64,000 nucleotides of DNA. Origin: an uncultured Pirellula sp. GTDB lineage: Bacteria; Planctomycetota; Planctomycetia; Pirellulales; Pirellulaceae. Where the stretch lies: assembly GCA_903858115.1 (NCBI GenBank), contig CAIOHR010000073.1:62001-126000 (forward strand), written 5' to 3'. Within the stretch, counting starts at the first letter, position 1; each line of letters begins with the position of its first letter. The notes under the pieces are model-generated. The model searched no databases. It saw only the letters and a list, made by a program, of their open reading frames with translations, and had not been told where the DNA came from. The position numbers and the translations under genes are program-made. Of the stretch, positions 13,822 to 18,247 are shown in pieces.

Positions 13822-14376
13822 TTATTCTTCGTACGTTATCGGGTCAGGGCCCATCGCTAGGGCGAAAATGGCAAATAGAACTGCCCAAACGATTCCCAAG
13901 ACGACGTTCAGTACGGCTCCCTGCGCGACTGTCCAAAGATAGACGGCACCAATAGAAAGATCATGTTTCGGTACATCCAATCCTATCGGATAAAGAACGA
14001 TCGAGGATACCATCCCGCACATCATATCTACAATGAACGCGATGGGAAAAATGACGGAGATCACCATCCGAATCACATAGGTTGTGATCAACGCATAGCG
14101 TACCGGCTTGCGCTGTCGAAACTTCCAGCGGCTGGTGCGGTAATCGGCAAAGATGAAACCGGCAACAAACGTCAATACCCCTGCGACCAACGCGGGCCAT
14201 TGCTGAACGTTGACTACCCCGATCGCCAAGAAAAAACTTGGTGCTGCACTAATCCAGCACACGACCAACCAAACCAGGATGGATTTCCACCAAACGAAGA
14301 CTCGCTCTTCTTGGGAATATTCGCTTCGAATCGGTGGAGCGATTGCCACCGCTTCGTAGGGGTTAAGATCGCTCAT
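13822..14376 (-). CDS. NPYE-type multi-pass membrane protein
   Basis: 184 aa. It begins SDLNPYEAVA, the N-P-Y-E/xSP opening seen on many planctomycete inner-membrane proteins, then four hydrophobic spans (about residues 30-52, 60-78, 92-120 and 142-172). No catalytic motifs; function unknown. The start codon at 14376 sits only 4 bp from a 10-unit heptamer array, so its leader is repeat DNA with no recognisable ribosome site. Confidence 0.75.
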   Translation of the reverse strand: MSDLNPYEAVAIAPPIRSEYSQEERVFVWWKSILVWLVVCWISAAPSFFLAIGVVNVQQWPALVAGVLTFVAGFIFADYRTSRWKFRQRKPVRYALITTYVIRMVISVIFPIAFIVDMMCGMVSSIVLYPIGLDVPKHDLSIGAVYLWTVAQGAVLNVVLGIVWAVLFAIFALAMGPDPITYEE

Positions 14377-14604: not shown

Positions 14605-15231
14605 TCAACTTGGCGAGGCAGCTTTTGCTCGGTTGTAAAGATAAGGGTTGAGTGTCGGATCGTTGTACATTTTGAACTGTCGATACGTTCGGTGTTTTTT
14701 GACGCCAGCATACATGTCTTCCAAAAGCTCCTTCAATGAATCACTAAGTTCGGCATGTTGAAGACGACAGATCGCGATGCGTTGACTAACCTTTTCGATG
14801 TGCGCATCGTTGATGTCCGTTCGTTGCAACTGTTCATCCAAATGATAGATCCGAAGCGAAATGATCGAGAGCCGATCGATCGTACTACCCGGTGTTTCCG
14901 TGTTGAGTTTGGCGTCCGGTCTACACTGCACAAATCGTGATTGTAGATCATCGCTGAGCCAATCATCTACTTTTTCTATCCAATCGTTTCGAAGCTGATT
15001 GTATCGGTCAATATTTCGTTTCACATTTGCAATCTGCGCATCTGTGACGTCGGGACTCCTGGCGATGTCCTCTTCGTGCCATAACAAATAGTTGTACTGG
15101 TGTTGTTGGCACGCGATCGCAAGCACCGAACGAGTTTCTCCTTGTTCGACGAAGGGATTCGTTACTGGTTCTCGATGCCACAACTCGATGGTTCGAATCT
15201 GCATGGCAAGTATTTCGTCTATATGCAACAC
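14605..15231 (-). CDS. DUF4254 family protein
   Basis: 208 aa, nearly all alpha-helical, with the N-terminal pattern of DUF4254 (LWHxE-NP, ACQQHQYNYLLWHEEDIAR). Function unknown. The GTG start at 15231 is supported by GAGGAG 9 nt upstream. It lies 34 nt downstream of the coiled-coil/DUF4332 gene on the same strand, suggesting an operon. Confidence 0.8.
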   Translation of the reverse strand: MLHIDEILAMQIRTIELWHREPVTNPFVEQGETRSVLAIACQQHQYNYLLWHEEDIARSPDVTDAQIANVKRNIDRYNQLRNDWIEKVDDWLSDDLQSRFVQCRPDAKLNTETPGSTIDRLSIISLRIYHLDEQLQRTDINDAHIEKVSQRIAICRLQHAELSDSLKELLEDMYAGVKKHRTYRQFKMYNDPTLNPYLYNRAKAASPS

Positions 15232-15265: not shown

Positions 15266-18247
15266 TTAAGCGGCGCGAACCGCACGGCAGTTCTGAGCCC
15301 AGTGAATCCATTCGCTCACTTCCTTACGATCGGGTGGTACAGCTCCGCGCAGGATTCGCAAGCCAGCTTTGCTACTCGCGTACTGCATCACCTTCTCGTA
15401 GAACGCCTCGGGGTTTGATTTGGCAAGCTCTTCCGCAGTTGATAGTCCGGTTCCCACAATAATCTGTGCGTCATGCCCACGAAGGTTCGGAACTCGGCAA
15501 ACCAAGAGCGATTGTTTCTGCCAATCCGCAATCATTTCGGATGTGACATTACGTTCGGCAAGGCGATCCGCGGCTGATTCCGCATGACAGTTGATCAAGT
15601 CTGCAATGCTGTGAATGTCGATCTCCGCGAGCTTGGTCGCCATCTTCGGACCGATGCTCGGCGCGTCTACCACGGGACTATCGATATCCAAATAGAACTT
15701 CCATTGCGATGTTCCATTGCTTGCAGCGATCGTACTCAACGGATGCGAGGAAGTTGTGGCTGCCGCGTTGCGATCGGTCGAGCGAAAATCTCTTGTCACT
15801 CGAGGTTCCCGTTCACGATTATCTCGTGGTCTCGGATCGTAGGCGCGGATGCTAGCTCCCGATGTTGATCGTCGTTCGCTATTCGATCGATCGTATTCCG
15901 TTCGATCACTATAGGAATTGCGACTGGTTCTCCCCACCGTAGCTACCCATTCACGAATTCGATTGGCTTCGAAAGGACTGGTGGTCTGGAGCAGGTCCTG
16001 CCCTTCGGCACTTCGTAGATAGGTCGCAACGCGATCGACCAACTGCTTGGGTGTTAGATCATGAAGCATATGCGAACGCGTGATACCGCACCCGACCAAC
16101 ACGCGTGCATCGAATGGTCTCAATTGAGGTGTCGACGTCATCAATTCGGCGACGCACTGCAAGTAGTGTACGAGATCGGATTCGACTCGCATGCATTCCC
16201 CCAAAGAATCTGGCGTCGAGCGTACCAGATCGCCCACGCGATGAACTCCTGCCATGCGAAATCGCTCCGCCAATGTCGCGTCAACCGTCGGAACTTCCTG
16301 AATAGGACTGTCCAAATGGAGTTGAAATTTGTGCTGTCGATGAACAACGGGCGCTGTTCGCACGGCGGCCGGTCTAGTCGTTCCCTGCGTGTGAGGCAAA
16401 GGGCTCCACCAGGACGACGATTCCATTTCGTTCGCGAGCCCACTTAATTGTCGATTGATGTCGTTCAGATCGGTTAGGCCGTAAGTAGCGGAGCCTGTAG
16501 CGAGGTAAGGGTTTTCGACATACCCGATCGTTGGTTGCGATTGAATGCTAGGATGTATTCCGAGATTCGAGGTGCCATCCATCACATAACCCGGCCTCGC
16601 GTATCGCAAGATCTCGTGCATACGGGAAACGGTTCCACCATGGGCAGCGATTCTCCGTGCGACGAATTCGTCATTCGTGGCAAGCAAGATTTGACGACCA
16701 TCGCGGGCGAAACCCGCGAGAACATGCAACACTTGTTCGAGTGCTTCACCTCGAAATAGCTCGATCGAATTGTCAAAGAGGAATGGAATCCTACCAATGC
16801 TTGGTATGGCAGCTTCCGCGATGGCCAATCGTATCGCGAGATCCACCAGCCGGCGTTGACGCGAATCGCCTGTGGGCAATCGACGATCGTAATGAACATC
16901 TTGTTGACCATGCTCTCGGTAGCCGTATTCGGGTTGGCCATCGAAATCGATCAGCATGCCGTGGTCTCGCAAATACGACGTCTCGACTGCCCATGGCGGA
17001 AGCTGCCGAGCAGCACCGGCCGTCAGCTCGCGAAGATATTTCTCTACCAACGGAATGAGTGAACCCTCAGAAGTACGACGGTAGGGAGAGCGGGTCTTCA
17101 AATGAGACTGGACTTCCTTCAATCGACGGTGCCATTGCGTTCGGCGATCCCATCGTTTGAGCATTTCTTCGGCATGGGTCAATTGTTGTCGCAGTTGGGC
17201 ATCATCCCAGCGATGTGTTGTAGCGACTTTAGGTACGACATGGATGTTTTGAAGTTGGATTTCAATATCCGCTTGTTCCGCTACCAGCAATTCCATTCGG
17301 CTCTTGGTCCGTTGGATTTCGCTGCTCCAATCCGACTTTGCATAGCGATCGGGTCGGCCTCTTCCCAAGGTCACATGATTCAACGTTCCATTGTGAAACG
17401 CGTCCAAGTCGCCTGGGGACGATTCTCTCGCAATGTCGAGTTTGGCATTGGCTTCGGCAACCAGCAGATCCTGATGCGTGCTGCGCAAGTTGTTCAACTC
17501 GATCTGAACCATGGCGAGTCGTTCGCGCAGACCAGCAACGACCGCTTGATTCGTGCGCTCGGTCGGTTGTGCCGGTGCGTGGTTGGTGTGTGCGACGTGA
17601 CTGATTTCGGCCAAGAGTCGATCACGTTCCAACGCCCACCAGGCGCGATCATGATCGACCGCATCGGCATTGCGAAGTTGATCCAGTAAATCTTGTTCTT
17701 CGCCTTTGAGTCGTTGATACCCTTCGTCCAACTCATTGCGTGCAGGAGAATGGACTCCGAGACGGCTTGCCGACCACCAGAGTTTTTCCGGAGAGACGCT
17801 ACCGAGCGAGCTACAAAAAATCATTCCGAGGATGTCGCCACGCAATTCGTCCCAGCGTGCGTCGCCAGCGTCACCTTCCCAGAAAATGTTGCCGAGGCCG
17901 TGAACGCGATCTTTGTCGTGTATGTGAAGTGTGTGCTGAGACGGATGAAGCGGCGAGTTAACGAACCCGCCGGGCAGCATCGCAGAACCGCCAGCGAACG
18001 ACATCATGCGTACATGGCCCGTCGAGTCGACCCATTGCATGGCGCCGTCAATCGATTCCCCTTCTTCGGTTTCGAAGACTTCGTTGACGTAGCTGCCGCG
18101 AAAAAGGATGCTTCGAACAAAGCGTGACATGGTCGCACTGCCGCCTTGATGTGGGGCGAACACCGCGTTGAGTCCCCCTCCGAACGGTCCAACCTGCAGA
18201 TGAGCGGCTGAGTTCTTGCGATCGATATCCAGTCGAATTAAGTGCAT
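15266..18247 (-). CDS. SMC/YhaN-like coiled-coil protein with eroded ATPase motifs and two DUF4332 domains
   Basis: Start at 18247 has GGGAGGA 8 nt upstream and removes 19 codons from the ORF (993 aa). Residues about 24-50 align with the Walker A region of SMC/YhaN-type ATPases (GLNAVFxP...), but GPNxSGKST reads APHQGGSAT, losing the P-loop lysine. Coiled coil spans about 190-420. The C-terminal ABC half has LPTGDSRQR for the signature and PFLFDNSIE where Walker B would have D-D/E. Two DUF4332 helix-hairpin-helix-like domains follow (about 645-785 and 850-990). Likely a DNA-associated scaffold without ATPase activity; inferred. In an operon with DUF4254. Confidence 0.75.
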   Translation of the reverse strand: MHLIRLDIDRKNSAAHLQVGPFGGGLNAVFAPHQGGSATMSRFVRSILFRGSYVNEVFETEEGESIDGAMQWVDSTGHVRMMSFAGGSAMLPGGFVNSPLHPSQHTLHIHDKDRVHGLGNIFWEGDAGDARWDELRGDILGMIFCSSLGSVSPEKLWWSASRLGVHSPARNELDEGYQRLKGEEQDLLDQLRNADAVDHDRAWWALERDRLLAEISHVAHTNHAPAQPTERTNQAVVAGLRERLAMVQIELNNLRSTHQDLLVAEANAKLDIARESSPGDLDAFHNGTLNHVTLGRGRPDRYAKSDWSSEIQRTKSRMELLVAEQADIEIQLQNIHVVPKVATTHRWDDAQLRQQLTHAEEMLKRWDRRTQWHRRLKEVQSHLKTRSPYRRTSEGSLIPLVEKYLRELTAGAARQLPPWAVETSYLRDHGMLIDFDGQPEYGYREHGQQDVHYDRRLPTGDSRQRRLVDLAIRLAIAEAAIPSIGRIPFLFDNSIELFRGEALEQVLHVLAGFARDGRQILLATNDEFVARRIAAHGGTVSRMHEILRYARPGYVMDGTSNLGIHPSIQSQPTIGYVENPYLATGSATYGLTDLNDINRQLSGLANEMESSSWWSPLPHTQGTTRPAAVRTAPVVHRQHKFQLHLDSPIQEVPTVDATLAERFRMAGVHRVGDLVRSTPDSLGECMRVESDLVHYLQCVAELMTSTPQLRPFDARVLVGCGITRSHMLHDLTPKQLVDRVATYLRSAEGQDLLQTTSPFEANRIREWVATVGRTSRNSYSDRTEYDRSNSERRSTSGASIRAYDPRPRDNREREPRVTRDFRSTDRNAAATTSSHPLSTIAASNGTSQWKFYLDIDSPVVDAPSIGPKMATKLAEIDIHSIADLINCHAESAADRLAERNVTSEMIADWQKQSLLVCRVPNLRGHDAQIIVGTGLSTAEELAKSNPEAFYEKVMQYASSKAGLRILRGAVPPDRKEVSEWIHWAQNCRAVRAA

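Follow-up and report, generated by a model that had tools for sequence, protein, structure and literature searches.

We analysed a window of 64,000 nucleotides from the genome of an uncultured Pirellula sp. (contig CAIOHR010000073.1, positions 62,001 to 126,000), in which the reverse strand carries, at positions 15266 to 18247, a gene for a 993-aa protein followed by a DUF4254 gene. The coordinates and start given in the preliminary description are correct, as the N-termini of the orthologues agree at 18247, where all of them open with MHLIRLDIDRKN. We read the protein as one of the YhaN/Rad50-like proteins, in a branch made up of pseudo-ATPases, and the locus is laid out as follows:

15266..18247 (-), gene of the YhaN-derived pseudo-ATPase with DUF4332 tail, 993 aa; start placed from orthologues; compared with the nearest orthologue, dN/dS is 0.08
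17729..18247 (-), former ABC head, N-terminal lobe (aa 1-173); the hhalign alignment with Lys-containing orthologues starts at residue 1, and 38-56% of columns are invariant in most of the lobe
18131..18157 (-), former Walker A, APHQGGSAT (aa 31-39), without Lys; varies freely within an otherwise fixed head
17090..17728 (-), shortened coiled-coil arms (aa 174-386); predicted helices, and spacing from P-loop to Walker B
16850..16879 (-), ABC signature position, LPTGDSRQRR (aa 457-466), motif lost; alignment with YhaN
16766..16786 (-), Walker B, PFLFDNS (aa 488-494), in which the Asp remains and Asn stands in for the catalytic acid; alignment
16670..16684 (-), H-loop position, LATND (aa 522-526), with Asp in place of His; alignment
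15938..16327 (-), first DUF4332 domain (about aa 641-770); Pfam DUF4332, pLDDT about 80-90
15269..15712 (-), second DUF4332 domain (about aa 846-993) with the helix-hairpin-helix APSIGPKMA; Pfam DUF4332 at 863-985, HHH_5 at 2.2e-6, Foldseek
14605..15231 (-), DUF4254 gene, accessory neighbour; Pfam 3.6e-51, 34 bp downstream of the pseudo-ATPase gene

Searched as a single sequence, the 993-aa protein gave no ATPase family, AAA_27 included, in the Pfam scan, no NCBIfam model near its cut-off, and no match in the PDB by phmmer. When the family of the window protein was compared by hhalign with orthologues that contain the Walker A Lys, the whole head aligned with 100% probability (E 8e-41), the P-loops falling together and APHQGGSAT sitting opposite GPNGSGKTT, and against an intact planctomycete YhaN the C-terminal lobe aligned with 97.5% probability (E 8e-12). 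Judged by these sequence profiles, the ancestor of the protein was an ABC ATPase of the YhaN/Rad50 type. The predicted order of elements fits a split ABC head, with a helix and strands in the region of the former P-loop, a meander of strands at residues 68-90, the arms at 175-386, a helix at 463-479, a strand at 489-492, a helix at 501-515 and a strand at 520-524. Two structure predictions of the head were of low confidence (mean pLDDT 53-56, with large parts below 50); with these models Foldseek returned Rad50 and SMC heads as its top matches, at an E value of 1.6e-3 at best. Because the head models are of low confidence, the ABC fold rests on the sequence profiles and the order of secondary structure, and is well supported by homology and weakly by prediction.

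Next, we consider the ATP motifs of the head. The Walker A position reads GLNAVFAPHQGGSATMSRFVRSILFRG, where relatives have GLNAVxGPxGSGKTT. The pattern GxxxxGK[ST] is absent, and the loss of the Lys from APHQGGSAT, which had been recognised before, recurs in all 18 of the 18 Pirellula-clade proteins inspected. The ABC signature LSxG was earlier said to remain, but in the alignment its position reads PTGDSRQRR where YhaN reads LSRGTREA. Walker B, FLFDN, had been called eroded, which is true of its second acidic residue, now Asn, but not of D492, which is still present; part of the genus has D or E as the catalytic acid, and other Pirellula proteins read DD, DE, EN or EH. The alignment with YhaN additionally reveals two losses that had been overlooked, namely the H-loop His, replaced by Asp (LATND), and the D-loop Asp, replaced by Arg. 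Since motifs that define a YhaN ATPase were looked for and found missing, we do not classify the window protein as one. From the sequence we infer an absence of nucleotide binding, and ATP binding is probably gone in the window's genus; given that D492 and a glycine-containing loop are still present, weak nucleotide binding may be possible.

The helical arms agree with the coiled coil described previously; confidence in their prediction is fair (for residues 175-386, pLDDT is mostly 75-88), with an apex at residues 276-304 predicted to be unstructured. A zinc hook of the Rad50 type (CxxC) is absent, as there are zero Cys in residues 206-386, and the Pfam scan gave no match to a hinge of the SMC type, for which the arms are also too short. 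We used the spacing from P-loop to Walker B as a reflection of arm length; it is 921-957 residues in YhaN, with medians of 621 in the Lys-containing proteins, 552 in the other Lys-less proteins and 464 in the genus. In one Pirellula subclade (L015, L092 and L137-L139) the pseudo-ATPase is just 833-917 aa long and its arms are much shortened.

The presence of two DUF4332 domains is borne out by Pfam (PF14229; 85.7 bits against a cut-off of 23.2, 3.6e-24, in two stretches). The second stretch also carries an HHH_5 match (2.2e-6), the hairpin consensus is absent from the first copy, and Foldseek places the model of the tail with the helix-hairpin-helix (HhH) domains of RadA, RAD51C and Pol iota (rmsd 1.2-2.0). 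Sequence and fold resemblance together suggest that the tail may bind DNA. Its end is conserved as EVxDWIxWAxxxRxLxAA, and the double DUF4332 tail serves as a marker of orthologues. The window protein has these domains in common with other DUF4332 proteins (PF14229), but the other two of the same genome are short frames of 141 and 149 aa, whereas the window copy is joined to a dead ABC head. In other Planctomycetia the same DUF4332 tail is also fused to a Zn-dependent phospholipase C-like domain (L157:5-1945, L159:43-2160 and L162:61-1725), which bears a weak likeness to S1/P1 nucleases (0.0083).

The gene is present in 27 of 27 genomes of the Pirellula-like genus, and purifying selection acts on it. 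Between the window protein and its nearest orthologue, L004, dN/dS is 0.08 overall, with 0.046 in the N-terminal head, 0.054 in the C-terminal head and 0.111 in the tail region; the N-terminal head of the pair L008-L009 gives 0.015, and for L011-L017, a closer pair, the range is 0.10-0.27. In two pairs, window protein-L004 and L008-L009, conservation is higher in the head than in the tail. Within the head, the former P-loop (columns 31-39) has zero invariant positions and is one of the most variable parts, whereas the strand before it, the helix after it and residues 111-210 are 38-56% invariant. Low dN/dS across the head combined with a variable P-loop indicates that the head is maintained for a role independent of the P-loop sequence.

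Upon widening the survey, we observed that the tail profile (threshold E <= 1e-15) matches 205 of the 241 genomes of Pirellulaceae as well as other families of Planctomycetia, part of the matches being other architectures. We collected 86 proteins, 84 of them scorable for the Walker A Lys, which 47 have and 37 do not. Distant Planctomycetia orthologues, recognised by the DUF4332 tail, often keep GKS/T; the sister genus g242 retains GARGAGKST and ILDD, and L087 and L088, from another family, are complete (GPNETGKST, LSSGTREQ, LDDVLVNFD and FTCH, plus the tail). These two are the only proteins with all motifs intact and represent one lineage among those sampled. LSxG or the H-loop His is kept in none of the Lys-less proteins of the motif survey, whose rows are not independent, and this suggests an order of decay. 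A tree built from the tail only (74 proteins) requires at least 11 changes of the Lys state (bootstrap range 11-12), with 8 changes forced by well-supported branches, and a quick tree of 86 rows gives 12 changes, 6 of them forced. Such a count gives no direction, and most changes are taken as losses because YhaN, like ABC ATPases in general, has GKS/T. Orthologues with GKS/T and an acidic Walker B, which the preliminary description had regarded as evidence against its proposal, are found outside the genus; they show that the loss is derived and repeated, and the proposal is not overturned. In a separate lineage near a sister genus that keeps the Lys (L067:7038-10847), Walker A is lost (VPTAYNTSK) and LLIDD is kept.

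Among named systems, YhaN, an SbcC-like AAA_27 ABC ATPase, has in common with the window protein a bipartite head, coiled-coil arms and homology in both the N- and C-terminal lobes, whereas the window protein has lost Walker A, signature, D-loop and H-loop, has about half the motif spacing and has two DUF4332 domains added. The same genome encodes an intact YhaN (L085, 1277 aa) with all motifs, all 27 genomes of the genus contain YhaN relatives, and it is presumably this intact copy that does the ATP-dependent work of YhaN. Rad50/SbcC heads are the best, though weak, structural matches of the predicted head, but the window protein has no zinc hook, no ATP motifs and no recognised Mre11/SbcD neighbour. 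LmuB, the SMC-like protein of Lamassu, is another weak structural match of the head, and its PADLOC model is matched by the intact DUF4332 relative L087 (4.9e-16); the window protein, in contrast, occurs throughout its genus, with no defence context recognised. A defence system was rejected, as PADLOC gives no match for the window protein, and so was a phage origin, a phage match being absent.

The accepted picture of SMC, Rad50 and YhaN proteins is one of machines driven by ATP. For the window protein the reading that we favour, with moderate confidence, is a YhaN-derived pseudo-ATPase with HhH tails that would act as a static, ATP-independent scaffold. A YhaN/Rad50-type ABC ATPase would have acquired two DUF4332 (helix-hairpin-helix) domains at its C-terminus early in the history of Planctomycetia, and its ATP machinery would then have decayed in most lineages, in a rough order that present-day proteins suggest to be the H-loop first, signature and D-loop next and Walker A last, the arms shortening as well. 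The head and short arms may hold partners or a second copy by dimerisation, and the DUF4332 tails may hold nucleic acid, or protein. The preliminary description had likewise seen a YhaN/SMC-like pseudo-ATPase with HhH-type tails, and profile homology, conserved motif loss and purifying selection speak for it, while the retained signature and the DUF4254 operon as a family-wide link have to be dropped; the observation was real, its details were less exact, and its repetition across the class is more interesting than had been stated.

The strong constraint on the dead head is what would be expected of an interface, and the head could be the inactive partner of an intact YhaN, like the degenerate subunits in asymmetric ABC pairs, with the DUF4332 tail targeting the complex. 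A YhaN relative is at hand in every genome of the genus, and that of this genome has all motifs; however, the two genes are not linked, the signature on which a partner head would depend is also lost, and a spacing of 464 against about 950 would mismatch the usual paired arms, and we regard this arrangement as rather improbable. The head might instead be a sensor that binds nucleotide or another small ligand non-canonically, which would suit the persistence of D492 and the glycine remnants and the greater conservation of head over tail in the pairs window protein-L004 and L008-L009, but it is distinctly improbable given that the former P-loop is among the most variable head parts and that signature, D-loop and H-loop are gone too. 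Concerning the tail, the fusions seen elsewhere in Planctomycetia, with Zn-dependent phospholipase C-like proteins, raise the prospect that it serves protein or envelope contacts and not DNA, the protein being structural; we consider this unlikely, though worth keeping in view, as the tail resembles the HhH domains of RadA, RAD51C and Y-family polymerases, DNA contact is made by many of these domains, and the fused enzyme domain is also weakly S1/P1 nuclease-like (0.0083). Finally, motif loss and changing lengths could be signs of a decaying gene or an assembly error, but this is practically inconceivable with the gene present in every one of the 27 genomes of the genus, zero internal stops among the matches listed, dN/dS of 0.05-0.2 and the same loss in independent assemblies. 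A pseudogene is ruled out by dN/dS, and decay or assembly error is refuted by the data.

Beyond the static scaffold itself, we tentatively propose, at somewhat less than even confidence, that a widely conserved SMC/YhaN-like protein of Planctomycetia has independently become ATP-independent about ten times, contact with DNA passing to the HhH tail, and that these proteins may be static, motorless SMC-like DNA organisers. Planctomycetia are known for condensed nucleoids, and the family bears on why they tolerate or favour the loss of ATP motifs. Its present-day members include every step between a complete ATPase and a head that lacks ATP motifs, which lets an ATP-free role of the fold be tested. 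Full-text searches found no literature on the family, DUF4332 and DUF4254 being mentioned in passing only.

The gene context gave no functional clue, as neighbours differ between genera, and a conserved operon was rejected, since no neighbour recurs beside the orthologues of other genera. Scans for promoters and terminators yielded nothing above chance. The DUF4254 gene, previously described as forming an operon with the pseudo-ATPase gene, does lie close downstream on the same strand, but the pairing is confined to one Pirellula subclade; it is found in 26 of 27 genomes of the genus and adjoins the pseudo-ATPase gene in the window's subclade only. With a pairing so subclade-specific, DUF4254 is poor evidence on function. 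In the sister Pirellula subclade DUF4254 sits at another place, at two of the loci read beside a CNT-type nucleoside transporter gene (L167:3759-5747 and L168:1959-3981), and for a flavobacterial set a published survey (PMC9425974) links it to a heptosyltransferase. Downstream of DUF4254 in the window, positions 13822-14376 (-) encode a 184-aa protein that has a weak GtrA match (E 0.4), is probably membrane-embedded and is conserved (77%) in the nearest relative.
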